NCBI GenBank assembly: GCA_946628965.1
Contig: CAMOXI010000013.1
Coordinates: 1 to 37,244 of the forward strand
Origin: an uncultured Clostridia bacterium
GTDB taxonomy: Bacteria; Bacillota; Clostridia; Oscillospirales; Oscillospiraceae
Reading direction: 5' to 3'
DNA length: 37,244 bases
The translations under genes and the position numbers were made by a program. Below, in pieces: positions 254-28,751 of this stretch (the stretch's first letter is position 1; every line of letters begins with the position of its first letter). Below the pieces are notes generated by a model. It worked only from the letters and a program-made list of their open reading frames with translations, made no database searches and was not told the origin of the DNA.

Positions 254-2070
254 TAGATCCCACCTCTCTCAAGTCGTTGTTCAATGGCTTGCATCCATGT
301 CCCGAGGTCTACCCCGGCCAGTCGCAGGGTCTGGCAGATCAGTGTCCAGTCCGGACACACCTCCAGCGCGGCCTGCGTCTCGGCGACCTTGCCGAAAGCG
401 ACGCCCTTGCCGCCGCTGAGGATGTCCAGGATCACGCCGGCCGTGGAGAGCCGTACCGTGCGCGTAAACGTGGCGAAGGCATCCTGCAGAGTCAGGCTGA
501 TGTTGTAGCTGTGCTCGGTGTCTGCCGCGACGATCATCTGACCGGTCTGCTGGTATGCGCTGAGAGTCACCACACTGCTTCCCTCCGGGTGATGTACCGT
601 CAGGCCCCGTGTATTATGATCGTTGACGGGCGCAAAGCTCACGCCCCACTCGATCAAAACATGATCTCCGCTGTCGTTGAGCACCCCCGCCGACGTACAG
701 CGGTGCACGGCCAGGGCAGTCACCCGGGGCGTGAACCACTCGACGATGCTGATGGTGTATTCCGTGACAGCGGTCACGCCCCGGCTGTCGGTGACTTCGA
801 TGGCCACGGTGTTATAGTCCAGGCTCTCCAGCACCTCGGTAATGGCCTCGGCGCCGGTGTAATATGTGCCGTTTGCGATGATCTTCAAGGTCTCCAGCGT
901 TGCGCCGTAGCGCAGGGCGGCGCTGGCCGTGATGTGCAGCCGGGACTGCAGCAGCACATAATCCCCGTAGGTCGCCCGCAGCTCTGCATCGTCCTCGATC
1001 ACTGCCGTCGGCTGCGGGCAGACGTCAATTTCCCGCAGTCTTACGGTGACGTCAGACAGCGCAAACGGCAGACCGACCAAAACGCTGTGGTAATAGGTCT
1101 GGACCTTGCAGCTGAAGGTCTTGCTCATGCTGTCCGGCATCAGCGGAGCAAAAGCGGATGCGGCTGGCGTCCAGCTTCCTGTCTCTGTGAGGGCCGGCGC
1201 GGTGACGGAATCCTCCGCCGCTGTCAAGATGAGAGAATAGCCGTAGCCGCCGGGGTCGGTCAGGGTGATCGTATTGGCCGCGCCGGCGGTAATCTCCTCC
1301 GGAAGTGTCACATCGCCAAAGCTCGGGTATGTCAGCCTGGCTTCGATGGATTCAGAGTACCGCTGGACACCGTTGATCGAGCACTTGAAGTAGTATCTGT
1401 AGTACGAGACATGATCGAGCCGTGTGTGGCCGATGTTGTTGCCCTTGCCACGAATTCCGATTGCAAAGACTTCCGGATCCGGCATAAACTGATATGTTGC
1501 GCTTCCGGTCGCATCCTGCGCGATATTCACGCTTGCCACGCGGGAATCCCCAGAAAGCGGGCTGTAAACAAAGGCGTAGATTGTGTATGAATACCGGTTG
1601 TCAACGGGATCGACGGTGATTGTGGCTGTGTCTCCAGGTGACAGGTTGGTCGCGGAAAAGCTGATGCTCGGGATCACAGGGGACTCTTCGGTGAACGTCC
1701 CGAGCGTGTATTGGAACGCCGGAGGATTGCCTGCCCCCTCCAGTGTGACGGTGAACGAAGCAGAGCTCGCTCCCTGGAAATCCAACGTGAATTTTGCAGA
1801 ACCGGAGGCCGACGTCCAGGATGTGTTATAGGTCCCGATGTAGACTGCAACATACCCCAGATAGGTCCCGTTCTGCCACACCTTGACAGGCCAGGCCTCT
1901 GACTTCATCGTCCCTGCGTTTGCGTCCTTCGTGACCGTGAGGTAGATGGTAAGCACAGGACTCGAAGACGCGTCCTCTTGGGATATGGCATACCTGGCAC
2001 TAACGTGCATGGTCGCATCCTCGTGCTGCATATCGAACTCCGTCAAAGCGGCGCCGGTACTGTATCCCAT
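253..2070 (-). CDS. DUF859-like phage tail/appendage structural protein
   Basis: A 605-residue beta-rich protein of the distal tail. Its C-terminal part (about residues 540-575) carries a Gly-rich turn with LDILSGGKGVAFGKV, a signature I know from DUF859-type phage minor structural proteins. Upstream come several repeated beta-sandwich-like segments rich in Thr, Ser and Tyr, and no enzymatic motif is seen. It follows the tail protein ending at 2071 without a gap, with GGAGGGAG before the ATG. One of the nine 17-bp prophage palindromes (342-358) lies within its codons about 30 residues from the C-terminus and encodes the residues around VCPDWT. The probable role is tail tip or receptor contact, inferred from position and fold type. 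Confidence 0.7.
   Translation of the reverse strand: MGYSTGAALTEFDMQHEDATMHVSARYAISQEDASSSPVLTIYLTVTKDANAGTMKSEAWPVKVWQNGTYLGYVAVYIGTYNTSWTSASGSAKFTLDFQGASSASFTVTLEGAGNPPAFQYTLGTFTEESPVIPSISFSATNLSPGDTATITVDPVDNRYSYTIYAFVYSPLSGDSRVASVNIAQDATGSATYQFMPDPEVFAIGIRGKGNNIGHTRLDHVSYYRYYFKCSINGVQRYSESIEARLTYPSFGDVTLPEEITAGAANTITLTDPGGYGYSLILTAAEDSVTAPALTETGSWTPAASAFAPLMPDSMSKTFSCKVQTYYHSVLVGLPFALSDVTVRLREIDVCPQPTAVIEDDAELRATYGDYVLLQSRLHITASAALRYGATLETLKIIANGTYYTGAEAITEVLESLDYNTVAIEVTDSRGVTAVTEYTISIVEWFTPRVTALAVHRCTSAGVLNDSGDHVLIEWGVSFAPVNDHNTRGLTVHHPEGSSVVTLSAYQQTGQMIVAADTEHSYNISLTLQDAFATFTRTVRLSTAGVILDILSGGKGVAFGKVAETQAALEVCPDWTLICQTLRLAGVDLGTWMQAIEQRLERGGI
342..358. repeat. Prophage palindrome copy 1 (GTGTCC-N5-GGACAC)
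   Basis: GTGTCCAGTCCGGACAC, a perfect 6+5+6 palindrome inside the 3' end of the DUF859-like gene. Read on the minus strand the spacer is GGACT, matching the GG-R/T-N-T/C spacer trend of the other copies. It is the only copy far from a gene start other than copy 9. Confidence 0.85.
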
Positions 2071-3705
2071 TTAACTCCCTCCTACCCACAGAAAACTCAG
2101 GTTGCCGGAGCTGCGCGGCTGCAGCAGAATCCGGCCGAGCTGTAGACTGCCGCCCTCCGGGATCTCCACCTTCTTCGGTGCAAGGAAACGGTTCTGGTCC
2201 CAGACCGTTGTGGGCTCCCCGTTCCAGAGCAGCGCCGCGTCCTGGTGCGAGACCTGGAAGGCGGACGGGCTGTCGCTTTCGCCCAGCTTCACATAGCCGT
2301 CAGCATAGCGGATATACTGCCGCACCTCGTTGTAGCCGGCATTTGCCTCTTGCCGCACAGTGCTGATGGAGACCTCCAGGCTGTTTTTCGTCTGCACGAT
2401 CTGGCTTTCCACCGCCGCGATCCTGCTCTCCGTCTCCGCTTCGTTGTCGTTGATTTCGTCCTGCAGGGCCTCGGCCTCTTCCTTGGTGGCGTAGGTCTCT
2501 CCCACCGTCAGCAGAATGGCGTCGGCGCGCTGTTCGAATGCGCTATACGTGCGGGCCACCATAGCCTCATCTGCAGCGAGAGCCGCCCTCAGAGCCCTGG
2601 ACGCCTCGCTGGGCGCTGAATACTCATGGTCGACCTCCGTTTCCGCCGGGGCTTCCAGATCCGCGAAGATCTTCGGCCCGATGGTCCAGGTGATGGCCAC
2701 CAGCGGGTACAGCGTATCGTCCAGCCTTACCAGGTCGCCCAGCTCCGCCGCAGGATCCAACTCCACACCGGCTGCAGAAAAGGGTCTGTAGACATAGCTC
2801 TCTGCTGCTTGCAGGCAAAGATCAGCGGCGACGCTGTCGGAGAAGTTGCAGGCCGCCTTCAGCACATATCCGGTGGTGGTGCCGGCCTTGGCGATGCCGC
2901 CGCTGTCCGTCTGCAGCTCGACACCGGATATTGCCGGCACTGGTTCCCCCGGATCAAAAGAGCGTACGGAGAGCCCCAACAGGTGCACCGCGGCTGTGTC
3001 CATGCTGGACGCGCGCCCTGCCACGGCCAAGCCAGCTATCGCAATGCCTGCGATAGCTCCGCTTCCAGCACTTTCATCGGTCTTCAGCGGCACAAGGCGG
3101 ATCCGGCCCGTGGCGCTGATCAGCAGATTCGCACCTGTCGCCGCGGCGATCGTCGCCCAGGTCTGGCGCGCGGTCGCGGTGGTGTCCAGGCCGACAAAGG
3201 GGACGCTGTTATCCAGGACGGTCCCGCTCTCCAGCAGGACACCGGTGGCCTCCTGCAGCAGCGCAGCCGCTGCGCTGGCTGTGATCGGCCAGCTTGTGGG
3301 AAGCGTTTGAACCTTGTCGGTCCAGGGCTGCTCCAGCAGCAGCATCCCGTCAAATGCAGTAATGCTCAGCTCTCCGCTGTAGCTGGGGTGCCGTTCGTCC
3401 GTGTAATAAGTGCCCAGCGGGAGCCATTCCGAGGTCTGCTGACCGTCGGCGCTCTGCAAGCGGACGCGCAGGGTGAAGCTGGCCATGCGTGGCCAGCTTC
3501 CTTTCTCTTCCAGCAGCTGCAGATCGCAGCGGGCTGCGTGGTTTCCTCCCACCTGAGGCCCGCTGCCGTCAAACAGCGCCCAGCTGAGCTTAACGCTCCG
3601 GATCCGATCCGGACCGTAGATGATCGGCCCGCGCAGCACCTGAACCTCGTATAGCGCATCCGGATCTGCGCGGAGGGTTCGATAAAGACTTGATGTCGTC
3701 TGCAT
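2071..3705 (-). CDS. Phage tail protein with C-terminal coiled coil (tail-tip/hub candidate)
   Basis: A 544-residue structural protein encoded after the tape measure and a small DUF6711-like gene, the position normally held by distal tail or hub components. The N-terminal 200 residues are beta-rich (ALYEVQVLRG, PLGTYYTDE and similar strands), consistent with a hub domain. Residues about 400-460 are strongly charged and heptad-like, with repeated Glu/Ala/Ile, predicting a coiled coil. No peptidase motif was found. The start ATG at 3705 follows an AGAGAGGTG-type ribosome site. The hub assignment is inferred from order and general fold rather than from a recognised domain. Confidence 0.65.
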   Translation of the reverse strand: MQTTSSLYRTLRADPDALYEVQVLRGPIIYGPDRIRSVKLSWALFDGSGPQVGGNHAARCDLQLLEEKGSWPRMASFTLRVRLQSADGQQTSEWLPLGTYYTDERHPSYSGELSITAFDGMLLLEQPWTDKVQTLPTSWPITASAAAALLQEATGVLLESGTVLDNSVPFVGLDTTATARQTWATIAAATGANLLISATGRIRLVPLKTDESAGSGAIAGIAIAGLAVAGRASSMDTAAVHLLGLSVRSFDPGEPVPAISGVELQTDSGGIAKAGTTTGYVLKAACNFSDSVAADLCLQAAESYVYRPFSAAGVELDPAAELGDLVRLDDTLYPLVAITWTIGPKIFADLEAPAETEVDHEYSAPSEASRALRAALAADEAMVARTYSAFEQRADAILLTVGETYATKEEAEALQDEINDNEAETESRIAAVESQIVQTKNSLEVSISTVRQEANAGYNEVRQYIRYADGYVKLGESDSPSAFQVSHQDAALLWNGEPTTVWDQNRFLAPKKVEIPEGGSLQLGRILLQPRSSGNLSFLWVGGS

Positions 3706-3709
3706 CGGA

Positions 3710-4084
3710 TCACCTCTCTGTCAGCACGTACGTGACGCCGTTCCAGAAAAGTTGCCCTTTCTGCACCAGCATGACGGCCGCCTCGATCTCGGTGCCGTAA
3801 AAAGTCTTGGTGGTCGGCCCCAGCTGCGGATCCGGATACGTGATCTGCACGAACTCGTGGTCCAGCGCCGCGCACAGCTGCCGGAGGCGCGCGTCCGGGA
3901 TCTTCGGCTTGCAGGTGTGTGTAAGCTGCCGCTTCTTGCCGATCCTCGCGCGGCGCATCATGGTGTCCAGCGTGCGGCCAGCCTGGTCGCTCTCAAGATC
4001 GAACTTTTTCCACTTAAGCCCGCCGTCCATTTTGATGACGTCGGTAAAATCGACACCGTCGATCTTGTACTTAATTTCAGCCAT
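3710..4084 (-). CDS. DUF6711-like small tail protein
   Basis: A 124-residue protein directly after the tape-measure gene. The pattern KKRQLTHTCKP, then FVQITYPDPQLG, TKTFYGTEI and a C-terminal LFWNGVTYVLTER matches my memory of the DUF6711 family (KRKLECEW ... FEVEYPDP ... TFYVGDRTAP ... LWEGLSMNF). Those proteins sit between tape measure and tail tip in siphoviruses of Bacillota. Its role is probably in the tail distal end, perhaps as a Dit-like adaptor, but no function is established for the family as far as I know. Confidence 0.6.
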   Translation of the reverse strand: MAEIKYKIDGVDFTDVIKMDGGLKWKKFDLESDQAGRTLDTMMRRARIGKKRQLTHTCKPKIPDARLRQLCAALDHEFVQITYPDPQLGPTTKTFYGTEIEAAVMLVQKGQLFWNGVTYVLTER

Positions 4085-4092
4085 ACGTCACC

Positions 4093-6663: not shown

Positions 6664-6664
6664 A

Positions 6665-7320: not shown

Positions 7321-7329
7321 GTGCCCTCC

Positions 7330-7743: not shown

Positions 7744-7765
7744 AAAAGCCTCCTTCTCATAATAG

Positions 7766-7807
7766 AAAAAGCCGGGGCGGTGTCCGGAATGGACACACGG
7801 CCCCGGC
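7766..7807 (-). terminator. Terminator-like hairpin with embedded palindrome, before the major tail gene
   Basis: Minus strand: GCCGGGGC arm, an inner stem formed by GTGTCC-N5-GGACAC, GCCCCGGC arm, then TTTTT. It lies in the 81-base leader between the connector gene and the major tail protein. It could be a partial terminator/attenuator or a 5' stabilising or processing structure. The palindrome makes up the upper stem. Confidence 0.7.
7780..7796. repeat. Prophage palindrome copy 2
   Basis: GTGTCCGGAATGGACAC, in the leader of the major tail protein gene and forming the upper part of the hairpin there. Confidence 0.9.
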
Positions 7808-7824
7808 CCTTGTTGGCTCTGGCC

Positions 7825-9374: not shown

Positions 9375-9416
9375 AAAAGGGCCGGGCGGTGTCCGGGATG
9401 GACACGGCTCCGGCCC
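9375..9416 (-). terminator. Terminator-like hairpin with embedded palindrome, before the capsid gene
   Basis: Minus strand: GGGCCGG arm, inner GTGTCC-N5-GGACAC stem, CCGGCCC arm, followed by TTTTCTTATTTTT. This is a good intrinsic-terminator shape about 65 bases upstream of the capsid start. It mirrors the structure in front of the major tail gene. Confidence 0.7.
9389..9405. repeat. Prophage palindrome copy 3
   Basis: GTGTCCGGGATGGACAC in the leader of the major capsid gene, inside the hairpin described at 9375-9416. Confidence 0.9.
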
Positions 9417-9432
9417 TCAAGGCTCCGGCCTG

Positions 9433-13079: not shown

Positions 13080-13096
13080 GTGTCCGGAACGGACAC
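13080..13096. repeat. Prophage palindrome copy 4
   Basis: GTGTCCGGAACGGACAC in the 28-base gap between terL and the head-closure gene, immediately before the ribosome site of the latter. Confidence 0.9.
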
Positions 13097-14900: not shown

Positions 14901-15382
14901 CCGAACAAATCCGCGTCCGGATCGTCCTCTTCCTGCTCTGCCAGCTTCCTGGCGAGCCGCGCCCGGCCGTCTGGCGTCAGGCCCAGCTTGGTGGCATAGG
15001 CCAGAATCCCTACCTCCAGCGCCTGCATCTCAGAGCTGATGGAGACCAGGAGCTTCAGGTCAGTCTTGGAAAGCTCCTCGCCGCCGTCCGCGGCTTTGCG
15101 GAGCCTGGTATAAGCCGCCTGGGCCTCGATCCAGCGTACCATCTTGGAGCAGTAGAGCCCCAGCACGTCGGAGTCCAGGCAATCCAGGATCTCGTAGTCC
15201 TTCATGTCCGCCAGGACCCGGTCCCAGATCTTGCGCTCCGGCGTCTTGGACTTGATGAAAGAGGGCGGCTTCGTAGGGAAGCGGGTCGGCATCACGCCGG
15301 CCTCGGCGCTCTGCCTGGCCTCAATCTCCGACCGGGTCAGGTGCTTGCTCATGTTGTCAAGGGTCTTGGCCTTTGTCGGCAT
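14897..15382 (-). CDS. terS: Terminase small subunit (P27-like)
   Basis: A 161-residue DNA-recognition subunit. It shows the P27-type pattern: a basic N-terminus (MPTKAKTLDNMSKHLTRSEI), then PPSFIKSKTPERKIWDRVL, a long helix with LGLYCSKMVRWIEAQAAYTR, and a C-terminus LGLTPDGRARLARKLAEQEE plus an acidic tail. The frame is open to 15550, but ATG 15382 has GGAAGGAG upstream at good spacing. The ribosome site itself abuts palindrome copy 5 (15401-15417). It should pair with TerL to pick and cut the genome at its packaging site. Confidence 0.85.
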   Translation of the reverse strand: MPTKAKTLDNMSKHLTRSEIEARQSAEAGVMPTRFPTKPPSFIKSKTPERKIWDRVLADMKDYEILDCLDSDVLGLYCSKMVRWIEAQAAYTRLRKAADGGEELSKTDLKLLVSISSEMQALEVGILAYATKLGLTPDGRARLARKLAEQEEDDPDADLFG

Positions 15383-15400: not shown

Positions 15401-15417
15401 GTGTCCAACCCGGACAC
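15401..15417. repeat. Prophage palindrome copy 5
   Basis: GTGTCCAACCCGGACAC directly upstream of the terS ribosome site. Read on the minus strand the spacer is GGGTT. Confidence 0.9.
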
Positions 15418-16345: not shown

Positions 16346-17125
16346 TTACCTTTTCTTGGGCTTGCCGCGGCGCTTGGCCCTGTGTTTGGGTGTAGAGTCC
16401 CAGCCCGGCACCAGGTACTTGATTACCCGGGAGCTGCAGTGCACATCCCGGTAGGAGCTGACCTGCAGCTCCAGCGCGCCCTTAGGCACCTGCACCTGTT
16501 CGTCGTTCTCCACGCGGATAGTGTCCACCTCCGGGTGTTTTGCGTTGCGGGTGTAGCTCCAGCTGCGTTGGCCTGGCTTGTCGCGGGATTCCTTGCACAT
16601 ATAACGGGCGATCGCCTCGAAGGTGTGCTCCTTGTCCAGCTTCAGCGGCCGGATCTCGATATTACTTCCGTAGATCCAGCACTTCCGGATCAGATCATAG
16701 TCTGCGCCGGTGGCGTTGAGGACAAAGTGGTGGTGCCAGCGCTTATGCTGGAAGTAGTCCTCGTGCTCGTGCTTGTGCTCGGCGTTCCAGTGAACGACGG
16801 CCTCCTGGCCGCGTTTCTTCCGCTCCGCCTGCAGGCAGGCCCGGAAGTATTTGAACCGGAGCTCCGCTTCCTTCCTGGACTTCGGAAGGTGCGCATCGTC
16901 ATAGGTGACGGTCACCCAGAGATCTCCCGGCCCATAGTTCGCAGCCAACTGCAGCTCCAGCTTCTGCCAGCTATAGACGGCATTCATATGCTTCTGCGCT
17001 TCGCTCGACGCCTTGTGCTTGGCTGCACGGACTCGGTCATCATCCCGCCGATCAGCGCGGGGGTAGATCGCTTCGATCACCAGCAGACCGGCTGTGATGA
17101 TCTTCTTGGTTTTGTTCTTTGCCAC
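16346..17125 (-). CDS. HUH-type rolling-circle replication initiator-like protein
   Basis: A 259-residue Rep-like protein. Motif 1 is DLWVTVTYDDAHLP (the usual FxTLTF-like strand), motif 2 is RWHHHFVLNA (His-x-His metal ligands), and motif 3 is IARYMCKES with Tyr and Lys in the expected Y-x-x-K order. This is the REP_ORF2-G2P-like arrangement found in small phages and plasmids. Such enzymes nick one DNA strand at an origin and stay linked to the 5' end. A GTG at 17125 with GGAG upstream is chosen over the TTG at 17140. The nick site is unknown. A Rep in a tailed siphovirus that also encodes DnaB, a DnaD-like protein and ParAB is notable. Confidence 0.75.
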   Translation of the reverse strand: MAKNKTKKIITAGLLVIEAIYPRADRRDDDRVRAAKHKASSEAQKHMNAVYSWQKLELQLAANYGPGDLWVTVTYDDAHLPKSRKEAELRFKYFRACLQAERKKRGQEAVVHWNAEHKHEHEDYFQHKRWHHHFVLNATGADYDLIRKCWIYGSNIEIRPLKLDKEHTFEAIARYMCKESRDKPGQRSWSYTRNAKHPEVDTIRVENDEQVQVPKGALELQVSSYRDVHCSSRVIKYLVPGWDSTPKHRAKRRGKPKKR

Positions 17126-17200
17126 GGTCTGAATCTCCAATCGCAGACCGCAGCCTCCGGGGCCTCCGTCCTCTGTTATGTGTCCTTAGTGTTGTGTTTT

Positions 17201-18969: not shown

Positions 18970-20226
18970 CTATTCCTCAGGCAGCGGGTACCAGCGCAGA
19001 ACTGGCGCCGAGAAAGTGGCGTCCATGTGGTAGAAGTGCCAGCCAGCGTCATCCAGCCACCGGGCCGGCTGCCGTTTGACTTCTTTGCCGCACTGGATCT
19101 CGCACCAGTACGCCCCCTCCTTCTCCGGGGTACCCGTCTGCCAGGCCGGGCCTTGGTCTGGCTTGATCTGGGCGGCCAGCTGCAGGGCGATGGTCGAGAG
19201 CATGTCGTAGACCTCCGTCCAGGTCCGGAAGATCGGGGCCTTGCGATACATGAAAAAGCTCAGGCCCTTGGGGCTGCCTTCATAGCCGGGCGTCTTGTCA
19301 TAGGCCGAGGCGTAGCTGTGGCGCAGGCGCTGCTTGAGCGCCTCGATCCCCGCCTGGCGGGAAAAGTTGAAGCGCGGCATCTGGTCGATGAAGAACATGG
19401 CGCGGATCACCAGCATCCGGAAAAACTCCGCGTCCTCCCGGGCGCGCTCGGCCAGGTACTCGTCGGCGTTGTAGCTTCTGGCGGGCTCTGGCGCGACGGG
19501 TGCGTCCGCCTTCGGCGGCGCCTTGCGGCGGTTGATCGCCTCCTCCAGCTGGGCCTCGGTCAGCTCCTTGAGCTTGCCGCCATAGGTGCGGAAGACGCCC
19601 GTCTGGATCTCGGCCGGCTCCTGGCTGAGCCGATAGGCGGCGGTGACCGGCAGCGCGCCGGAGTTGAAGAAGGGCAGCAGGGAGCTGGCCAGGTTGTGCT
19701 GGATCGCCTGCAGCCGCGCGACCTTGGTGCGGCTCATGCCGGAGAGCTTGGCCAGCCAGTCGCGATGCCGGCCGTCGAACTTGTAGCCCTCTTTCTCCAG
19801 GCGGCGGATGCAGTCCGACAGGCGCTCCAGCTGCTGGATCTCGTCGGCGGGTGTCAGCTTGCGGTTGTCGGAGTTTCCGAGAATCAGATGGAACTCCCGC
19901 AGCGCCGTGGAGATAGCCTCCCGGTCGACGATGCAGGGCACGCCGTTGGGGAAGGCGCCGGGGTTACGTTTGAGGATCAGCCCAATAGCTGCGTGCCGGC
20001 GGTGGCCGGACACGATGCCGAAGGCCGTCTCGCTCAGCTGCCGCACGCGCGGCGGCTGCTGCAGGCCCACCAGCTCGATGTTGCGGGCCAGCTCCTCGAT
20101 CCCGTCCATGCTGTACCCGTTGTGCGGGTCGGGGATCAGCGAGGCGTAGGGCAGGTAGCGGATCTGGTCGAGGCCGGTGTCCGGAGTGGACACATCCTTG
20201 AGGATATCAGCGATATCAAAGCCCAT
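18970..20226 (-). CDS. parB: ParB family DNA-binding partition protein with extra C-terminal domain
   Basis: A 418-residue ParB. The N-terminal nuclease/CTPase-like domain (about 20-125) has YLPYASLIPDPHNGYSMDGI, then ELARNIELVGLQQPPRVRQ and GIVSGHRRHAAIGLIL, the last being the GxRR-type CTP-binding motif. The helix-turn-helix follows at about 165-200 (WLAKLSGMSRTKVARLQAIQ). After a Pro/Ala linker (about 245-260) come a helical region and a C-terminal stretch (PEKEGAYWCEIQCGK ... RWYPLPEE) resembling DUF551 domains, which are not usual in ParB. The gene follows parA by one base, with GGGAGG before ATG 20226. It should bind a centromere; the nine dispersed palindromes, one inside its own codons 12-17, are the best candidates. 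Confidence 0.88.
   Translation of the reverse strand: MGFDIADILKDVSTPDTGLDQIRYLPYASLIPDPHNGYSMDGIEELARNIELVGLQQPPRVRQLSETAFGIVSGHRRHAAIGLILKRNPGAFPNGVPCIVDREAISTALREFHLILGNSDNRKLTPADEIQQLERLSDCIRRLEKEGYKFDGRHRDWLAKLSGMSRTKVARLQAIQHNLASSLLPFFNSGALPVTAAYRLSQEPAEIQTGVFRTYGGKLKELTEAQLEEAINRRKAPPKADAPVAPEPARSYNADEYLAERAREDAEFFRMLVIRAMFFIDQMPRFNFSRQAGIEALKQRLRHSYASAYDKTPGYEGSPKGLSFFMYRKAPIFRTWTEVYDMLSTIALQLAAQIKPDQGPAWQTGTPEKEGAYWCEIQCGKEVKRQPARWLDDAGWHFYHMDATFSAPVLRWYPLPEE
20177..20193. repeat. Prophage palindrome copy 6, inside parB codons 12-17
   Basis: GTGTCCGGAGTGGACAC. On the coding strand it encodes the residues Val-Ser-Thr-Pro-Asp-Thr, so the DNA site was fitted into the protein sequence. 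Confidence 0.9.
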
Positions 20227-20227: not shown

Positions 20228-21019
20228 TCAATACCTCCCTTCTGCGATCCGGGACGCAAAGCTCCGGTAGTCATGGCAGGCGCCGGACTTGGGGCTGGAG
20301 ATGTACAGTGGCTCCTGCCGGTAGGTCATGGTGTCCACCATCGTACTGCGCCGGATCCGGGAAAACAGAGTCAGGCCGCTTTCCTGCAGCTTCTGCAGGG
20401 CGCGGTTGTTATCCTCGGACTTGTACCACATCACCGGCAGCACACCGGCCACCCGCAGGGCGGGGTTAATGCTGCGCATGTTGTAGATCTGCCGCATAAG
20501 GTTTCCCATGCCGCGCAGGGCGAAGGCGTCCAACTTGATTGGGATGATTACTTCATCCGCTGCCAGCAGCGCCGCGGCAGCCGCCGCGTTGAAGGCTGGC
20601 GGGCAGTCGATCAGTATATAGTCATAGCCGCTGCGTTCCAGCTCCGGCCGCAGATCCCGCAGGCAGGTAACATAGGCGCTGCCCTCCTCCACCTTGCTGA
20701 GATCCAGATCCATCAGACTGTCGTCCGCGGGTAGCAGATCCACTGCGGGGATCGTGCTGGCGCGGATGGCCTGCATGGAGGCCTCAAGGTTGAGGGAGAA
20801 CTTGGTGCGCTCAGCCTTGGGCATACGCAGCAGCGTGGCCAGGCTGTGCCCCTCCCGGACAATGCTTCCGCCGAGAAATTCCGTGGCGTTGCATTGGCTG
20901 TCAGCGTCCACAACAAGGATGCGCTTGCCGTGGTAGTGGGCCAGATCCGCCGCCAGATTGACGACGGTGGTGGTTTTCGCAACCCCTCCCTTGAGGTTGC
21001 AGATGGCGATTGTCTTCAT
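20228..21019 (-). CDS. parA: ParA family partition ATPase
   Basis: A 263-residue ParA. The deviant Walker A, ICNLKGGVAKTTTVVNLA, has the signature Lys early in the loop. Walker A' is followed by ILVVDADSQCNATEFLGG, and the Walker B is YDYILIDCPPAFN. It later has EVIIPIKLDAFALRGMGNL. There is no N-terminal regulatory helix-turn-helix, so it looks like a type Ib/chromosomal-length ParA rather than a repressor-fused one. ATG 21019 has AGGAGG upstream at a longer than usual distance. Forming an operon with parB, it would move ParB-bound DNA. Such a pair is expected when the phage genome can persist as a plasmid. Confidence 0.9.
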   Translation of the reverse strand: MKTIAICNLKGGVAKTTTVVNLAADLAHYHGKRILVVDADSQCNATEFLGGSIVREGHSLATLLRMPKAERTKFSLNLEASMQAIRASTIPAVDLLPADDSLMDLDLSKVEEGSAYVTCLRDLRPELERSGYDYILIDCPPAFNAAAAAALLAADEVIIPIKLDAFALRGMGNLMRQIYNMRSINPALRVAGVLPVMWYKSEDNNRALQKLQESGLTLFSRIRRSTMVDTMTYRQEPLYISSPKSGACHDYRSFASRIAEGRY

Positions 21020-21288: not shown

Positions 21289-21306
21289 TCGGTCTCTCTC
21301 CTTTCC

Positions 21307-21323
21307 GTGTCCGGACTGGACAC
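21307..21323. repeat. Prophage palindrome copy 7
   Basis: GTGTCCGGACTGGACAC in the 35-base gap between the dnaB stop and the small gene before parA, directly beside the dnaB stop codon. Confidence 0.9.
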
Positions 21324-22673
21324 CTAAAACGGCAGGTCTCCGCCGGCGCCGTCCGGAAGGTCTTCCAGACGACCTTGACCGTTGATCTGCTCGTCGTCCT
21401 CGTCCTTTGGAGGCTTTTTCTTTTTGCCGGGCTTCTCCGCCTCCGGATCCCGGTACGCAAAGCGCATGTGCCTTGGATCGAAGGTCAGGAAGAAGTTGCC
21501 CGTCGGGCCGTCCTTGTTCTTGTCGATGATCAGCACGCGGTCGCTGGCCCGGTTCTGGGGAAACTCCAGATCCAGCAGCAGGATGGTCTCTCCATCCTGG
21601 AGCAGCTGCTTGCTCTCGCGCAGATCCTGCATGCAGATCCAGCGGCGGCTCTTGTCCTCCTTCAGCGGCGGAAGCGTCACCTGGCTCAGCGCAATGATCG
21701 TAACGCCCAGCTCCTGGCACATTGCGTGCAAGTCCATGCTCACCTGCGTGACCACATCCTTGCGCTCGGGGCCTGGCCCAGGCACCAACTGTACGTAGTC
21801 CAGGAAGACCACCTCGTAGCGGTGGGACAGGACATCCAGCCGGAGATCTGCCGCGGTCATGCGGGCGCTCTCGATCAAGTCGAAGGGATAGAGCTCAGAG
21901 CGCGCCCCCGCATCCGTGATCCGGAGGAAATCCGTACCGGAAAGTTTTTTCTCCTTGATCCGTTGCAGATCGACGTCGGCGTCGTTGGCCACCATGCGGT
22001 CACCTGCGTGCTCTTCGTTGGTCTCATAGCTGTAAAAGCCTACCCGCTTGCCATGCTTGGCCACAGACAGACCCAACTGCAGGGCGAAGGCCGTCTTGCC
22101 GACGCTGGAATAGGCGCCCAGGATCACGAAATCGCCCTTGCTCACGTGCACCCTCTTGTTGAGCACCGGGATCCCGAAATCCAGGTAGTCCCGCGGGGTG
22201 TTGGAGTTCTGCCGATCCAGGAATCGGTGGATCAGCTCGGTATACTGATAGCGCTTGATTCGGGAGCCGGACGTGACCAGGAGCATGGCAGCGTCCGCCA
22301 GCAGCTGCCGGGCCTGGGAAAGATCCATGTGCTCACTGCTGCCGATCCGCCAGCAGGCCTGCTGGATCGCGCGGAGCTGGCTGGAGTCCCGGAGGATCCG
22401 GGCATATTCCTCGCAGTTGGCCGCCGTGGGCGTCAGGCGCATCATGTCGGACAAGGTCGGGCCGTAGGCGTCGGAGCCCAGCTCGGCCAGTACGGTGACC
22501 GGGTCGATGGTCTTGTTTGCTAAGTACAGGCTGCGGAAGGCCTCGAAGATATGTCTGTTGGTGGCGTCCGGAAAGTCGTCCGGCTCCAGCTGGGACATGA
22601 GAACCGGGATGCAGCGTGGGTCGATCAGCATGGAGCCAATGACAGCAGTCTGGGCGGAGAGCTCTACGTCCAC
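21324..22673 (-). CDS. dnaB: Replicative DNA helicase, DnaB type
   Basis: A 449-residue hexameric helicase. The N-terminal domain carries AVIGSMLIDPRCIPVLM and FRSLYLANKTIDPVTVLAEL. The RecA-like core has the P-loop GAYSSVGKTAFALQLGL, YSYETNEEHAGDRM, the Walker B VVFLDYVQLVPG, the H3-like VTIIALSQVTLPP, and DLRESKQLLQDGETILLLD. A C-terminal NKDGPTGNFFLTFDPRHMRF is typical. The Lys/Glu/Asp-rich tail is atypical and looks disordered. The start is GTG 22673, with GGAGGG at eight bases. It should be loaded by the DnaD-like protein encoded just before it. Confidence 0.9.
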   Translation of the reverse strand: MDVELSAQTAVIGSMLIDPRCIPVLMSQLEPDDFPDATNRHIFEAFRSLYLANKTIDPVTVLAELGSDAYGPTLSDMMRLTPTAANCEEYARILRDSSQLRAIQQACWRIGSSEHMDLSQARQLLADAAMLLVTSGSRIKRYQYTELIHRFLDRQNSNTPRDYLDFGIPVLNKRVHVSKGDFVILGAYSSVGKTAFALQLGLSVAKHGKRVGFYSYETNEEHAGDRMVANDADVDLQRIKEKKLSGTDFLRITDAGARSELYPFDLIESARMTAADLRLDVLSHRYEVVFLDYVQLVPGPGPERKDVVTQVSMDLHAMCQELGVTIIALSQVTLPPLKEDKSRRWICMQDLRESKQLLQDGETILLLDLEFPQNRASDRVLIIDKNKDGPTGNFFLTFDPRHMRFAYRDPEAEKPGKKKKPPKDEDDEQINGQGRLEDLPDGAGGDLPF

Positions 22674-23515: not shown

Positions 23516-23560
23516 AGATCACGGGGCCTCGACGTGGTCGCGCACGGCGGGGCCCTTTTT

Positions 23561-24211: not shown

Positions 24212-24867
24212 GTTGCCGTCTCCTTCGGTTTCTCGCAGCGCTCAAACTCGATTACCCACACCCAGGGGTTGGCCGCCCAGCCGTATTTCCCGATGTCTGT
24301 TGGTTTTAATGTGTGCGTCCAGAGATCCGCAAAAGCTCCACGTGGGTAATCATAAAGGTGGATTTTGGCTTCATTCCAATTTGAGTATCTGCTGTAAGCT
24401 GACTCGCCCATCCCAACGTAATAGCCGCAAATGCCTTCATGCTCTGCTCCTTCATCGGTGATCTCCTGCAGGCGCTCCACGCGCACATCGGTCACACGCA
24501 GGAACAGTCTCGCCGCTTTCTTCGGCATATGAATAGATGGACGCCACGGCGATCCGAAAGTAACATTTTCATAAGCCGGATTCGCTTTATAGAGATAAGT
24601 CGGTTTGCGGTCTGCGGTCTCCTTTTTCATGAATGTCTCCCGGACATACAGGACATTTCCCGGAAGATACGGCGGAGTATAGATTCGGTGATCATCTGGA
24701 CCAGGGCTCTCTATAGACATGTCCATGGCGTGCCGCTTGTCCCCGTTAAGCTCAAGTCTTGCATTTCGTGGGGGTTGCGGCTTCACCAGCCTGCGCGTCT
24801 CCTTTTTCCTGCCTTCCAGGGTCGCCAGCACCATCTCGGTATTGAACAGGATAGGCTTCAGTGTCAT
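24208..24867 (-). CDS. ASCH-domain-like phage protein
   Basis: A 219-residue protein. The pattern at the N-terminus, ILFNTEMVLATLEGRKKETR, then RLVKPQ, PPYLPGNVLYVRETFM, WRPSIHMPKKAARLFLRV, TDVRVERLQEITDEGAEHEG and a C-terminal WAANPWVWVIEFERC is highly characteristic of a phage protein family with an ASCH/PUA-like fold, which probably binds RNA or modified DNA. The G-K/R-K-x-T-R-R step is the usual start of ASCH. Its exact substrate is unknown. It sits in an operon of early genes and its start overlaps the tiny membrane gene by ATGA. Confidence 0.75.
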   Translation of the reverse strand: MTLKPILFNTEMVLATLEGRKKETRRLVKPQPPRNARLELNGDKRHAMDMSIESPGPDDHRIYTPPYLPGNVLYVRETFMKKETADRKPTYLYKANPAYENVTFGSPWRPSIHMPKKAARLFLRVTDVRVERLQEITDEGAEHEGICGYYVGMGESAYSRYSNWNEAKIHLYDYPRGAFADLWTHTLKPTDIGKYGWAANPWVWVIEFERCEKPKETAT

Positions 24868-25034
24868 GGCTCACACCTCCCGCTTCTCGAGGTCTGGAGC
24901 AGTTGCTCACACTCGCGGATTGTCGTAGGCAACTCAAGGCACTGCTGCTGATCGTAGCAGCGGCACATCAGGCTGCCGATCACTGCGCCAGAGATCATCA
25001 GCAGCGAGGTCTCAATCAAAATAATCCAGGCCAT
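24864..25034 (-). CDS. Small membrane-anchored protein (56 aa)
   Basis: Reads MAWIILIETSLLMISGAVIG, then SLMCRCYDQQQCLELPTTIR and a polar C-terminus: one N-terminal transmembrane helix followed by a Cys-containing soluble tail. AAGGTGGTG lies before ATG 25034, which overlaps the stop region of the excisionase-like gene. Unknown role; the place in the early operon is shared with other tiny phage membrane proteins. Confidence 0.6.
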   Translation of the reverse strand: MAWIILIETSLLMISGAVIGSLMCRCYDQQQCLELPTTIRECEQLLQTSRSGRCEP

Positions 25035-25035
25035 A

Positions 25036-25335
25036 TCACACCACCTTCATGCCCGGGATATAGCGCAGCTGCGGGGGCAGCTCATCGGGTGGGATACTGC
25101 GTGGTTTCCGGGGTGCCGCATGGCGCTTGCAGCGCTTCCGGGGTTCCGGCATCGGCACCGGGTGTTTGTCTACGCCGCAGGTGGACAGATACTGCAGCAG
25201 ATCATCCTCCAAAAAGCGGATCTGCCCACGAACCCGCAGACACTGCAGATTTCCGTCCGCCACGATCCGATCCAGCGTACTGCTGGAGATGGCCAGCAGC
25301 TCGCAGACCTCGTTCTTTGTCAGCAGCTTTTTCAT
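25036..25335 (-). CDS. Excisionase-like MerR/HTH_17 protein
   Basis: A 99-residue protein. The N-terminal 55 residues, MKKLLTKNEVCELLAISSST, then LDRIVADGNLQCLRVRGQIR and FLEDDLLQYL, form a winged-helix of the excisionase family: helix-turn-helix plus a GxIRF wing. The C-terminal 40 residues are basic and Pro-rich. The frame is open to 25386, but ATG 25335 has GGAGGAGG at good spacing. It could direct excision with the integrase, or regulate early genes; excisionases in this family often sit beside lysogeny genes, whereas this one lies in the lytic operon. Confidence 0.7.
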   Translation of the reverse strand: MKKLLTKNEVCELLAISSSTLDRIVADGNLQCLRVRGQIRFLEDDLLQYLSTCGVDKHPVPMPEPRKRCKRHAAPRKPRSIPPDELPPQLRYIPGMKVV

Positions 25336-25592
25336 TGGGCGGCCTCCTCCGGATTGGTGTACAGCTCCTCGATGGAGCAGCGGCACATCTCCGCCAGTGC
25401 CGGCAGGATGTTGGCGCTGGGCCAGCGCCGGCCGGCTTCCCAGTCCGCGTAGGATTGGCGGGACACGCCCAGGTACCGCGCTGCAGAGGCCTGGGTTAGT
25501 CGCCTGGCCTCCCTTCGCGGCCGCAGCCCGTGCAGCATTGTCGCGGATGCAGCACAGGGCGGCGGGGCAACGGTGCTTACGATTGTCTTCAT
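25332..25592 (-). CDS. XRE-family transcriptional regulator (86 aa)
   Basis: An 86-residue Cro-type protein. Residues 25-75, RPRREARRLTQASAARYLGV and SRQSYADWEAGRRWPSANIL, form a classic XRE helix-turn-helix with R-x-x-x-x-x-T-Q, followed by LPALAEMCRCSIEELY. The first 24 residues are Ala/Pro-rich and look disordered. It overlaps the excisionase-like gene by ATGA. As an early gene behind the second XRE gene it could act like Cro, or be a further regulator. Confidence 0.75.
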   Translation of the reverse strand: MKTIVSTVAPPPCAASATMLHGLRPRREARRLTQASAARYLGVSRQSYADWEAGRRWPSANILPALAEMCRCSIEELYTNPEEAAQ

Positions 25593-25604
25593 GGTCGTTC
25601 TCCT

Positions 25605-26108
25605 TTAGTTGGTATTGCAGAAGTCTCCGCGGGGATCTCCGGGATCCGCGCAGATGATCGTCACGCCCTGGGCATAGCGCAGCTGCATGGCCGCTTGGAC
25701 AATGGCCTGCAGCTCCCCCAGGATCTCCTGAAAAGTCTTGGCCTGCTCTCCTTCATCCACCCGGCCGTTGCTGCTGATCCACATCAGATCCTCAGGCCGG
25801 TGCTTGGCCTCGAACTCCTGCATCCGGTACAGCAGCTGCACCACGGCCTGGGCCAGGGGAAGCTGCTCAACCTCCGGGAGCAGGCCCCGGGCCAGCGCGG
25901 TGGTGGCACGCAGGTGCTCCACGGCCAGGGTGTTGGAGGAATACAGATCGCACATCAGCGTGACCTTATCATCCGGCGGGATCGTGATCCCCGCCTCCCA
26001 GTTCGCCAGGGTCCGCACGGCGCAGCCCAGCAGCTCCGCTGCCTTTTCCTGGGTCATTCCTGCAGCGCGGCGGTGTCTGGCGTACATGGTTCGGTAGTCG
26101 TCGTTCAT
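25605..26108 (-). CDS. XRE-family transcriptional regulator, first gene of the lytic operon (167 aa)
   Basis: A 167-residue protein with an N-terminal XRE domain (RTMYARHRRAAGMTQEKAAE, then LLGCAVRTLANWEAGITIPP, and VTLMCDLYSSNTLAVEHL). The helical C-terminal half is without a known domain (LARGLLPEVEQLPLAQAVVQ and so on). It is the first gene transcribed from the strong leftward promoter at 26455-26483, placing it where Cro or an antirepressor normally is. AGGTGAAAAACC precedes its ATG. The 340-base leader before it holds palindrome copy 8 and a tRNA-like element. Confidence 0.75.
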   Translation of the reverse strand: MNDDYRTMYARHRRAAGMTQEKAAELLGCAVRTLANWEAGITIPPDDKVTLMCDLYSSNTLAVEHLRATTALARGLLPEVEQLPLAQAVVQLLYRMQEFEAKHRPEDLMWISSNGRVDEGEQAKTFQEILGELQAIVQAAMQLRYAQGVTIICADPGDPRGDFCNTN

Positions 26109-26207
26109 GGTTTTTCACCTCGCTCTCGCCGTATAATAGGGTCAGGATCTGACAGATGGCCTTCTCCCGTTGGGGGCGCAGCTTAGCGGTTCTTCGCCGC
26201 TGCAGCG

Positions 26208-26224
26208 GTGTCCATTCCGGACAC
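26208..26224. repeat. Prophage palindrome copy 8
   Basis: GTGTCCATTCCGGACAC in the long leader of the lytic operon, about 100 bases before its first gene. Read on the minus strand the spacer is GGAAT. Confidence 0.9.
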
Positions 26225-26282
26225 TGCCGAGCACCCATCACTGCGCGGGTGCTTGAAGGAGCACAGGAGAGAAAGGCATGGG

Positions 26283-26311
26283 TGGTGAGGGTCGGCAGGA
26301 CTCGAACCTGC
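26283..26311 (-). pseudogene. tRNA 3'-end-like remnant in the lytic leader
   Basis: Minus strand: a perfect T-arm (GCAGG stem, TTCGAGT loop, CCTGC stem), then CGACCCTC and ACCA. This is a canonical T-arm, acceptor 3' strand and CCA end. The matching 5' acceptor strand (GAGGGTCG or similar) is not found within 100 bases upstream, so it is not a whole tRNA. It may be a relic of a former attachment site or of a lost tRNA gene. Confidence 0.45.
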
Positions 26312-26429
26312 AAGGACACTGGATCCCAGGGCAAGAGGAGCTTCAGCCTTTCAGCCTTGCTCTCTGGCGGCCGCCGTTTGCTCTGCAGCTTTTCCATTTG
26401 CTCACGGCCCTCATGTTGAAAACTTATGT

Positions 26430-26444
26430 TCGCCATATTGGCGA
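26430..26444. promoter_or_regulatory. Repressor operator 1 (TCGCC-N5-GGCGA)
   Basis: TCGCCATATTGGCGA. A 15-bp palindrome overlapping the start region of the leftward transcript. Its centre is 32 bp (about three helical turns) from operator 2. Confidence 0.7.
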
Positions 26445-26454
26445 GTACAAGCAT

Positions 26455-26483
26455 ACAATAATCGCCCCTATGGCGAATGTCAA
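26455..26483 (-). promoter_or_regulatory. Lytic (leftward) early promoter
   Basis: Minus strand TTGACA, 17 bases, TATTGT. The 17-base spacer is filled by operator 2, so a bound repressor would block RNA polymerase. It drives the early operon beginning at 26108. Confidence 0.8.
26462..26476. promoter_or_regulatory. Repressor operator 2, inside the lytic promoter spacer
   Basis: TCGCCCCTATGGCGA. It has the same half-sites as operator 1 and lies between the -35 and -10 boxes of the leftward promoter. Confidence 0.75.
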
Positions 26484-26502
26484 GAAAATCTTACACTTCA
26501 AT

Positions 26503-26517
26503 TAGACAATTCGGCGA
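26503..26517. promoter_or_regulatory. Weaker repressor half-site (operator 3 candidate)
   Basis: TAGACAATTCGGCGA. Only the GGCGA half matches. The centre lies 41 bp from operator 2, on the repressor-gene side, so it could mediate control of the rightward promoter. Confidence 0.45.
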
Positions 26518-26528
26518 ATTTGATGAAA

Positions 26529-26541
26529 ACCGATCATCGGT
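26529..26541. promoter_or_regulatory. Separate palindrome before the repressor -10 box
   Basis: ACCGATCATCGGT, a perfect 6+1+6 palindrome with half-sites different from operators 1-3, immediately upstream of the rightward -10 box. It could be the site of a second regulator such as one of the early XRE proteins. Confidence 0.55.
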
Positions 26542-26545
26542 ATTG

Positions 26546-26551
26546 TATAAT
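26546..26551 (+). promoter_or_regulatory. Repressor (rightward) promoter -10 box
   Basis: TATAAT 30 bases before the repressor ATG. No good -35 box lies 17 bases upstream (ATGAAA is the hexamer there), so it may need activation or be weak. Confidence 0.55.
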
Positions 26552-26581
26552 TTCAACAGCTTCACCAAAGGAGCGTGAAAT

Positions 26582-26911
26582 ATGAATCGGATCAAAGAAC
26601 TCAGAGAAGGCCAAGGGTGGCTGCAACGTGATCTTGAGCAGAAACTCAACCTCGGACGTGGCAATATCTCGAAATATGAAAAAGAGGATCGCAGTCTTTC
26701 CCCTGAGCTGATCGGCAAGCTCTGTGACACCTTTGGTGTCACTGCTGATTATCTATTGGGTAGATCTAACACGCCCACCGTCTATTTGACAGACGAAGAG
26801 GCTGAGCTCCTGCGAGCCTATCGCGCTGCCAGTGAGGACGCAAAGGCCGTGGTCAATCTTACGCTCAAGCCCTACATGGGAAACGCCGATCGCAAAGACG
26901 CGGTGTCATAA
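26582..26911 (+). CDS. CI-like XRE repressor
   Basis: A 109-residue repressor. The N-terminal XRE domain starts MNRIKELREGQGWLQRDLEQ, continues with KLNLGRGNISKYEKEDRSLS and ends at LCDTFGVTADYLLGRS, which is a full helix-turn-helix with the usual D-Y-L-L-G end. The C-terminal 40 residues (LTDEEAELLRAYRAASEDAK) are a short helical piece as in small Bacillota repressors. No LexA/S24 protease domain is present, so induction would need another mechanism than self-cleavage. It is divergent to the lytic operon with operators between; AAAGGAG precedes ATG 26582. Confidence 0.85.
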   Translation: MNRIKELREGQGWLQRDLEQKLNLGRGNISKYEKEDRSLSPELIGKLCDTFGVTADYLLGRSNTPTVYLTDEEAELLRAYRAASEDAKAVVNLTLKPYMGNADRKDAVS

Positions 26912-26918
26912 TAAACTT

Positions 26919-26950
26919 CAAGACCCGGCGGGTGATCCATCCGGGTCTTG
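26919..26950 (+). terminator. Hairpin after the repressor gene
   Basis: CAAGACCCGG, a 12-base loop, CCGGGTCTTG, followed by ATGATACTT. The stem is strong but the T-tail is weak, so the hairpin may terminate only partially. Confidence 0.5.
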
Positions 26951-27020
26951 ATGATACTTAAAGAGTTATATTAAAACCGTAAATTAATCATTGCATAAAA
27001 CGGTCTGAGGAGAAAGAGAT

Positions 27021-28730
27021 ATGAGCAAGTGGCTGAAAGTCCTGCGCATTGTCGCAACTGTTTTGTTGGGTTCGTTTATTCTTACATGTTTGCTCGGGGT
27101 GTTCTATAGCAATGCGCCCGTCCTGTTTCTTGTGCTGATCGCCCTCGCCGCCTTTGGGATCTTCGCCATGTATTATTTCCCCTCAGACCGCGCGAAGATG
27201 AGCAAGGAGGAGCGGCAGGCGCTGCGGGAGGCAACAAAGGATTTTCAGACCGCACAGGCCGAGGCGGCAAGGCTCCGGATGGAGGCCCAGCAGATCCGGG
27301 AGAGCGCAGAGGCCGACGCCGCGCGCATTCGCACCGAGGCAGCTGCAGCCGCAGCCCAGGAGAGAGCAGCTGCCCAAACATGGGCGGATAGCGAACGCAA
27401 CGAGGCTAAAGCAGTTAGCCAACGCGCATCCCAGAAGCTGCAGGAGGCCGAAGCACAGGCGAGTACCACAATAGCCAACGCGAATGATGAAGCTGCTCGG
27501 ATCATTGAAAGAGCCCGAAAAAACGCCGAGGAAATTGCGGGAGAAGCCTATGAGGCACGCGGTAAGGCTGAGGAGTATCGTAAGACCGCCGAAGCCATGC
27601 GAAATGTCATTGAGGGTTATGGCACCCAGTATCTGAAGCCGAGCTACTCTCTGCTGGATGAGTTGGCAGAAGACTTCTCCTTCACCGAGGCCGGACAAAA
27701 GCTGAAAGCAGCCCGGGAAACCTCCGCTCGGATGGTACGCCTTGGTTACGCTGCGAAATGCGATTATGTAGAAGCAAATCGCAGGGACACCGCGATTGCT
27801 TTTGTTGTGGACGCCTTCAACGGTAAGGTGGATTCCATTCTCTCTAAAACGAAGAAGGACAACTATGGAACATTGGAGCAGCGGATCCGGGACGCCTACC
27901 AGATCGTGAACCACAACGGAAAAGCCTTCCGTAACGCTGTGATCACCCCTGAGTATCTGGACGCCCGCCTGGAAGAACTGAAGTGGGCCTGCACGGTCAG
28001 CGAACTGAAAGCTAAGGATCAGGAGGAGCAGCGCCGCATCCGCGAGAGGATGCGCGAGGAGGAGCGTGCCCGGCGCGAGTATGAACGCGCCCAGAAGGAG
28101 GCAGCCAAGGAAGAGGAGATGCTGCGCAAGGCCATGGTCAAGGCGGAGGCCGCCCTGAAATATGCCGCCGACGCCGAGCGAGCCAAGTATGAGGAGCGTC
28201 TGGAAGATCTTCGCGCTCAGCTTGCAGAGGCAGAAGCAAAGGGACAGCGTGCGCTCTCTATGGCGCAGCAGACCCGCAGGGGAAATGTGTATGTGATCTC
28301 CAATATCGGCGCCTTCGGTGAAAACGTCTATAAGGTTGGTATGACCAGAAGGCTGGATCCGCTGGATCGTGTACGGGAGCTGGGGGACGCCTCCGTGCCG
28401 TTCCCCTTCGATGTTCATGCCATCATTGAAAGTGACGACGCCCCGACGCTGGAGGCTCAACTGCATCAGGCGCTGGCGCTGGCCCAGATGAACAAGGTCA
28501 ACCCGAGAAAGGAGTTCTTCAAGGTTCCGCTCAGCACGATCAAAGCCTTGGTCGATGCGAAGGGGCTGCAGACCACATGGACGCTTAAGGCAGAGGCGGC
28601 CCAGTATTATGAGACGCTGGCCATCGAAAAAGAGATCCAGGAGAATCCTGAGATGAAGGCGAAGTGGGAAGCCTTTGCCGCTGACATCGCCCATGAGGAA
28701 CTGAGCGGAGAGGCGGAGGATGAAGAATAA
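27021..28730 (+). CDS. Membrane-anchored DUF4041 / GIY-YIG (T5orf172) nuclease, SNIPE-like defence protein
   Basis: A 569-residue protein. Two N-terminal transmembrane helices (about 6-30 and 33-54) precede a long Ala/Glu/Arg coiled coil (about 60-190). A DUF4041-like domain (about 195-335) contains PSYSLLDELAEDFSFTEAGQ, then KLKAARETSARMVRLGYAAK and YQIVNHNGKAFRNAVITPEY. A second charged coiled coil (about 340-415) leads to a GIY-YIG fold: NVYVISNIGAFGENVYKVGM, then TRRLDPLDRVRELGDASVPF, APTLEAQLHQAL with the metal-site Glu, and NKVNPRKEFFKV. From memory, this layout matches SNIPE, an inner-membrane nuclease that cuts incoming phage DNA. It lies next to the repressor, where superinfection-exclusion genes usually sit, with GAGGAGAAAGAGAT before ATG 27021. 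Confidence 0.8.
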   Translation: MSKWLKVLRIVATVLLGSFILTCLLGVFYSNAPVLFLVLIALAAFGIFAMYYFPSDRAKMSKEERQALREATKDFQTAQAEAARLRMEAQQIRESAEADAARIRTEAAAAAAQERAAAQTWADSERNEAKAVSQRASQKLQEAEAQASTTIANANDEAARIIERARKNAEEIAGEAYEARGKAEEYRKTAEAMRNVIEGYGTQYLKPSYSLLDELAEDFSFTEAGQKLKAARETSARMVRLGYAAKCDYVEANRRDTAIAFVVDAFNGKVDSILSKTKKDNYGTLEQRIRDAYQIVNHNGKAFRNAVITPEYLDARLEELKWACTVSELKAKDQEEQRRIRERMREEERARREYERAQKEAAKEEEMLRKAMVKAEAALKYAADAERAKYEERLEDLRAQLAEAEAKGQRALSMAQQTRRGNVYVISNIGAFGENVYKVGMTRRLDPLDRVRELGDASVPFPFDVHAIIESDDAPTLEAQLHQALALAQMNKVNPRKEFFKVPLSTIKALVDAKGLQTTWTLKAEAAQYYETLAIEKEIQENPEMKAKWEAFAADIAHEELSGEAEDEE

Positions 28731-28734
28731 TAGT

Positions 28735-28751
28735 GTGTCCGGTTTGGACAC
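28735..28751. repeat. Prophage palindrome copy 9
   Basis: GTGTCCGGTTTGGACAC five bases after the stop of the DUF4041/GIY-YIG gene. It has no T-tail, so it is a poor terminator. Confidence 0.9.

Follow-up and report, generated by a model that had tools for sequence, protein, structure and literature searches.

What reads the nine palindromes scattered over a prophage of an uncultured Clostridia bacterium (Oscillospiraceae; assembly GCA_946628965.1), and what purpose do they serve? The window, by which we mean the whole stretch of DNA analyzed, comprises 37,244 nt of contig CAMOXI010000013.1 and contains a siphovirus-like prophage with genes for tail, capsid, portal, terminase, DnaB, replication initiators, and an adjoining ParA and ParB. 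A first-pass annotation, made from these letters alone, recognized nine copies of the 17-bp palindrome GTGTCC-N5-GGACAC and proposed that ParB uses them in a combined centromere and silencing network. Based on comparative sequence evidence, we consider it quite probable that these palindromes serve the prophage's own ParB as parS-like loading sites. This confidence refers to ParB loading as such, a core that the partition and silencing readings share.

All nine copies are indeed present in the window, each with both 6-bp arms exact. The strong excess over chance stands, although the expectation given earlier (0.002 copies) was too low: 100 dinucleotide shuffles of the window yielded 0.02 copies on average and at most one. 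The earlier remark that host DNA is free of sites, and the concern that the motif might be equally common there, are both answered by the organism's own draft genome (2,179,651 bases in 134 contigs, 74.8% complete), which contains the nine window sites and no others; the reversed control pattern occurs once. One site with a single mismatch lies at 2996 of the window, and allowing up to three mismatches gives 28 matches versus 16 expected, so the signal sits in the exact sites. Across 126 distinct GTGTCC and 42 distinct GTGCCC sites of the wider family, the spacer is better described as R-A-N-T-Y than as the GG-R-N-T suggested at first. The statement that most sites occupy gaps just before ribosome sites holds in part, in that six of the nine lie ahead of genes (7780, 9389, 13080, 15401, 21307 and 26208, with 9389 and 26208 at 77 and 100 nt from the ATG), whereas those at 342, 20177 and 28735 do not. 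To the right of 28735, the next family-matched genes (29440–29951) point left.

Relatives were collected from IMG/VR by ParB homology (best 80 of 128 loci). A census of 6-N5-6 palindromes in 79 of these loci (1.16 Mb; L207, the same phage as the window, was dropped) is dominated by two arms, GTGTCC (85 copies in 36 loci) and GTGCCC (54 copies in 32 loci). The next arm has 11 copies, and the reversed controls of the two leading arms give 0 and 2. Among the 33 ParB-bearing records of at least 30.7 kb, which include the full record of L207 (G107), 25 carry three to nine GTGYCC-N5-GGRCAC sites. Exact GTGTCC sites are also found in Flavonifractor phage Cormatin (four, at 15329, 21480, 23600 and 28505 of ON453905, one of them in parB) and in MT835558 (four), while MT836068 and MT837589 have two GTGCCC sites each. 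In a scan of 99 genomes of the same order, two or more exact sites were seen on ten contigs, six of which also encode a ParB homologue; 23 of the 70 sites in these genomes are single on their contig, versus 30 for the reversed control. What three contigs (G060C80, G005C5 and G026C89) have in common with the window is limited to early genes, including those for DnaB, ParA, ParB and the replication protein; other contigs share structural genes as well. One genome, G005, has three ParB homologues (contigs C2, C5 and C173), with C5 pairing with GTGTCC and C173 with GTGCCC, as if co-resident prophages avoid cross-talk.

For a control, loci were gathered by homology to the terminase large subunit (TerL) of the window (best 80 of 104). 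ParB was sought in 58 full records and in the other 22 loci as fetched; sites were sought in 46 full records plus G107 and otherwise in the fetched loci. None of the 33 full records without ParB (14–53 kb) carries a site, and all seven full records with ParB do (three to nine each). Sites are present in 22 of the 25 nearest loci (L316–L338, L392 and L030), 7 of these 22 having ParB in the record, and in none of the 55 more distant ones (L339–L394 without L392). Two of these, L389 and L390, contain a frame with weak resemblance to ParB (E 1.2e-6) and lack sites. The first-pass annotation had named retention of the sites by ParB-less relatives as an outcome that would speak against its idea. With all 33 ParB-less full records site-free, this was mostly not the case, the exceptions being 15 short records of at most 26.6 kb.

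The copy coded inside parB, also noted at first pass, ties the palindrome more closely to this gene. A recognizable site lies near the parB start in 65 of 92 ParB loci, with all 12 arm bases exact in 38 of 80. The pattern V[SPA]xx[DGN]T is encoded at this location in 76 of 94 loci; V-S-x-x-D-T or V-P-x-x-G-T accounts for 50 of the 76 and intermediates for the rest, and the S/P and D/G residues tend to vary together with the DNA arms. Codon choice is nearly invariant: GTG is used in 75/76 cases (background share, 53%), TCC in 42/47 (32%), CCC in 29/29 (40%), GAC in 47/47 (71%) and GGC in 22/22 (64%), although p-values for this bias come out too small because the loci are related. One base beyond the palindrome, the choice is freer (ACC 50, ACA 17, ACG 7, ACT 2). 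In mixed in-parB sites, arms that leave a C–A mismatch in the RNA of the coding strand outnumber those with U–G, 13 to 6 (several of the 13 being close relatives), which argues that the constraint acts on DNA rather than on RNA pairing. The in-parB site looks like the product of selection on DNA symmetry.

If ParB reads the palindromes, arm type might be expected to follow its recognition helix, and in part it appears to do so. Of 81 other pure sites on DNA with a pure in-parB site, 79 match the latter in type; five further sites are mixed. We grouped helices by the residues equivalent to Caulobacter ParB 173/174/177/178, aligned by eye. In the resulting table, which was made after looking at the data, ParBs with APAR, RTAR, KTAR or ASAR go with 53 GTGTCC, no GTGCCC and one mixed site outside parB, and those with KSSR or APSR go with 17 GTGCCC, no GTGTCC and two mixed sites. 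A third palindrome, GTGTCG-N5-CGACAC, accompanies two of the five ParBs that have E at the 178 equivalent, and the remaining 1.08 Mb yielded no copy of it (up to one mismatch, R..Y spacer). The family thus seems to comprise at least two DNA specificities (TCC and CCC arms), and probably three with TCG. On a tree built without the helix and site columns (and without G028C85 and short ParBs), site class switches at least 14 times. Caulobacter ParB owes its preference for parS versus the Noc-binding site (NBS) to residues 173, 179, 184 and 201, and its N178 contacts parS (PMC7383237). In a mutual-information ranking of ParB columns, the site-coded column and variable C-terminal columns came out on top; the ranking was set aside, the helix then being read in groups.

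The window ParB matches the phage ParB family phrog_4715, and profile comparison links its N-terminal part to structures of Noc, Spo0J and ParB. An AlphaFold2 model of residues 1–230 (mean predicted local distance difference test score, pLDDT, 84.6) contains a helix pair at 154–162 and 166–178, the latter being the predicted recognition helix of a helix-turn-helix (HTH) motif. The protein thus has the N-terminal ParB fold and HTH of a ParABS system, and a Walker-type ParA adjoins it in the window, as in 72 of 76 loci, where ParA is directly upstream of ParB. ParA is missing in L257, L261, L263 and L268. In these four and in L308, which also has ParB without detected ParA, the in-parB site is kept, and the stretch upstream, read by eye, encodes the last part of a small HTH-like protein. 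A ParB identical to that of the window is found on contig L002 (Clostridiales bacterium UBA3758); a search of plasmids returned 348 records, all below 60% identity and at ∼27–35% among the matches listed. ParB C-termini vary between phages, and several end in a Cys-rich stretch with a DYLLG-like tail (L203:27022-28569, L149:8878-10344, L204:12343-13812), which we take to be reminiscent of XRE regulators. Pfam gave no significant match in the C-terminal parts.

A number of observations weigh against ParB as the reader of the sites. The window ParB falls short of the Pfam cut-off for PF02195 (24.1 versus 26.3 bits), a cut-off passed by 2 of the 10 proteins scanned, and it has GHRR at the position where GERR is the usual ParB motif. 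By eye, its N-terminus lacks the ParA-binding motif (L/F/I)G(K/R)G(L/F/I), as defined in PMC12704722, and has a conserved FD stretch in its place. Of the 33 long ParB-bearing records, three have no site, four have one and one has two. Four multi-site contigs in the 99 genomes have no ParB on the contig; two of these (G018C26 and G018C8) are cut beside DnaB, where parAB would follow, the genome of the third (G053) has ParB on other contigs, and the sites of the fourth (G001C55) lie at a contig end. Fifteen of the nearer TerL relatives carry sites while ParB is not seen in their records (4.0–26.6 kb). We take these for fragments, though this is not proven; virus records are often fragments, so that a gene missing from one of them says little. 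Largest among the fifteen are L329 (26.6 kb, four sites), whose record begins ∼6.5 kb ahead of the replication gene and cannot be judged for ParB, L331 (22.2 kb, one site) and L338 (20.7 kb, one mixed site), in which DnaB and the replication protein are present and parAB was not found. The ParB-less full TerL records are, moreover, also the more distant relatives.

The link between helix and arm has exceptions too. KSAR, the helix seen most often (22 rows), is found with 11 GTGTCC, 15 GTGCCC and 13 mixed sites; the helix core SKTQIGRL is common to L208 (one GTGCCC) and G021C2 (five GTGTCC); and three of the five loci with E178 ParBs have no exact site. Once relatedness is removed, eight supported independent pairs remain, in which residue 177 changes the expected way in ∼4 and the opposite way in ∼0 (p 0.125), so that the link is not significant by itself. 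Two further points concern function. Five ParA-less ParB records keep 1, 1, 1, 2 and 4 sites, the four being in a 56-kb record. Cormatin gave no chromosome conformation capture (Hi-C, 3C) signal in vitro or in vivo (PMC10197239), which disfavors strong ParB-dependent folding in its lysogen.

What remains of the original proposal is ParB as the binder, for which co-occurrence, the in-parB site, the site-free ParB-less records and the partial link between helix and arm all speak; the combined centromere and silencing network would go beyond this evidence. We envisage that two ParB monomers would each read one 6-bp arm through the recognition helix, and that ParB may load as a cytidine triphosphate (CTP)-dependent sliding clamp, by analogy with the wider family. 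Sites every few kilobases would let it load and cover much of the phage genome. Together with the adjacent ParA, it could then separate a circular, non-integrated phage genome at cell division, while the in-parB site would serve to nucleate ParB on the operon that encodes it and might adjust parAB expression.

Given ParB binding, partition is the role to which we commit, at roughly even chances, and it is favored by the position of ParA directly upstream in 72/76 loci. A substantial but smaller share goes to regulation or silencing, with ParB acting chiefly as a KorB-like or Noc-like protein that silences or organizes the integrated prophage from scattered sites, ParA being secondary; this reading has the ParB-binding core in common with partition. 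In its favor, the prophage is integrated, a tyrosine integrase is present in 25 of the 33 long ParB-bearing records (it was not seen in 8), and ParA-less records keep dispersed sites. These last observations favor an added regulatory or organizing role, and partition alone does not explain the ParA-less records, since these retain one to four sites. The idea that ParA-less ParBs lose their dispersed sites was ruled out by the 56-kb record. Retention of ParA in nearly all loci and the absence of a 3C signal from Cormatin speak against a mainly regulatory role. Six of the nine window sites precede genes, as regulation would have it, but site 28735 follows a stop codon. Placement across the family does not decide the role: gene edges and gaps hold 47 of 120 non-parB sites while making up 17% of the DNA, yet 73 of the 120 are in gene cores (all according to a crude open reading frame caller). 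Other roles are improbable.

Explanations that dispense with ParB fare far worse. Another phage regulator, such as the HTH protein encoded at 25605–26108, could use the sites as operators. One site does precede its gene, and homologues occur on 11 of 28 contig groups, most with sites. However, G005C5 has five sites and ParB with no homologue detected, L338 has a homologue with no ParB found and only one mixed site, the conserved site is the one in parB, and the arms partly track the ParB helix, all of which makes this very unlikely. RNA hairpins, serving as terminators or in translation control, are equally hard to credit. The palindromes at 7780 and 9389 are nested in longer GC-rich inverted repeats (7769–7808 and 9378–9417) with T-rich DNA behind them on the coding strand, which looks terminator-like, and several sites adjoin ribosome sites; on the other hand, many sites are inside genes, the arms partially covary with a DNA-binding helix, and non-pairing C..A arms in parB exceed wobble arms. 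Least plausible of all is that selection on the protein to keep V-S-x-x-D-T accounts for the in-parB copy, with the dispersed copies having a separate cause. The site is coding and the peptide recurrent, but S/P and D/G tend to vary with the arms over almost fixed codons, the wobble base outside the palindrome is looser, and ParB residues 11–18, which contain the peptide, are predicted to be disordered in the AlphaFold2 model.

Neither ParABS nor scattered ParB sites nor phage partition is new in itself. SopAB of phage N15 is a ParABS system with centromere sites outside the sop locus, and N15 is a linear plasmid prophage that does not integrate, unlike the window prophage. KorB of RK2 has a 16-bp site, OB, and a partner, KorA; we know of no conserved operator inside korB. 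RK2 KorB-IncC likewise combines a ParB-family protein, a ParA partner and scattered sites (12), with KorB clamps sliding from distal sites (PMC11790492), but RK2 is a plasmid and the present element an integrated phage. The cluster A mycobacteriophage RedRock is, like the phages here, temperate with ParABS; in that cluster, parABS replaces the integration cassette, and parS of RedRock consists of two loci of eight direct 8-bp repeats (PMC7157519), whereas many of the present records have an integrase alongside parAB, and their sites are dispersed palindromes that occur singly. The chromosomal systems ParB-parS and Noc-NBS likewise use palindromes recognized through the helix of an HTH (PMC7383237), and Noc sites are scattered too, but the site is a different one, of 16 bp; here the system is phage-borne and a site is coded in most parB genes compared. 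Cormatin (ON453905) has the same ParA-ParB family. It is a prophage with chromosomal coordinates that was induced and gave a circularization signal, and the available part of its description does not mention the sites (PMC10197239); in the record, ParB is labeled hypothetical, the sites are unannotated and no integrase is named. The literature searched, which covered few subscription journals and was available in part, yielded no description of these sites or this ParB family. New are the coexistence with an integrase, the site coded in most parB genes compared, and several specificities that partly track the helix.

Coordinates are collected in Table 1. The element is an integrated prophage, as seen from its integrase, the tRNA-like end and the host flank, in which the tRNA-like 3' end is followed on the right by spoIIP and gidB. 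ARAGORN finds no whole tRNA at 31374..31410. Having an integrase and a host flank, the element is not a phage-plasmid in the sense of an extrachromosomal element without integrase. Homologues of spoIIP and gidB share a contig with another integrase of the same family (L165 and L161; G018 contig C8); whether the attachment site is common to these and the window is uncertain, the host genes lying >10 kb from the integrase. Beside the integrase of the window, a HicB-like/ParE-like gene pair (29440–29951, minus strand) forms a probable toxin-antitoxin module. The lysogenic region also encodes a DUF4041/T5orf172-MUG113 protein (27021–28730, plus strand) that has no homologue in the 28 contig groups compared. 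Host DNA at 36288–37236 contains repeats with AGGGGAGGGGCTTGCCCCTCCC hairpins.

Table 1. Palindromes and selected genes of the window
Feature	Position	Strand	Context or basis
Palindrome	342..358	.	Coding, near 3' end of tail gene (253-2070, -)
Palindrome	7780..7796	.	37 nt ahead of major tail protein ATG; nested in longer GC-rich hairpin
Palindrome	9389..9405	.	77 nt ahead of first ATG of capsid gene (PF05065); nested in longer GC-rich hairpin
Palindrome	13080..13096	.	Gap between terminase large subunit and head-closure genes; adjoins ribosome site
Palindrome	15401..15417	.	Immediately ahead of terminase small subunit ribosome site; ATG 19 nt on
Palindrome	20177..20193	.	In parB, codons 12-17 (V-S-T-P-D-T)
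Palindrome	21307..21323	.	Gap between DnaB stop and small phrog_27610-like gene, ahead of parA
Palindrome	26208..26224	.	100 nt ahead of HTH regulator ATG
Palindrome	28735..28751	.	Directly after stop of rightward gene 27021-28730
parB	18970..20226	-	418 aa from ATG 20226; phrog_4715; ParB_N-like fold
parA, Walker ATPase	20228..21019	-	phrog_164, PF13614; stop 1 nt ahead of parB ATG
DnaB-like helicase, shared early module	21324..22673	-	Family match and comparison with relatives
Replication initiation protein, shared early module	16346..17140	-	phrog_3584
Tyrosine integrase	29989..31266	+	PF00589
tRNA-like 3' end (TTCGAATCCCCGC...CACCA), probable attachment site	31374..31410	+	Sequence read by eye

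A bolder extension, which we regard as doubtful, concerns a widespread group of integrating siphoviruses: their genome-wide ParB coating would also operate while the phage is integrated and would silence or mark it without any need for ParA, and, with a loading site inside most parB genes, protein, operator and dispersed sites would shift specificity together. If true, such a joint shift would spare co-resident prophages cross-talk. The family offers a natural series of DNA specificities (TCC, CCC and probably TCG) that are linked in part to a few positions in a single helix. In cluster A, the best studied case for comparison, phages carry either an integration cassette or parABS (PMC7157519), whereas many of the phages here carry both, with ParB sites genome-wide. 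In Cormatin, a culturable relative from Flavonifractor plautii (lysogen YL31), the role of ParB in an integrating phage is directly testable.

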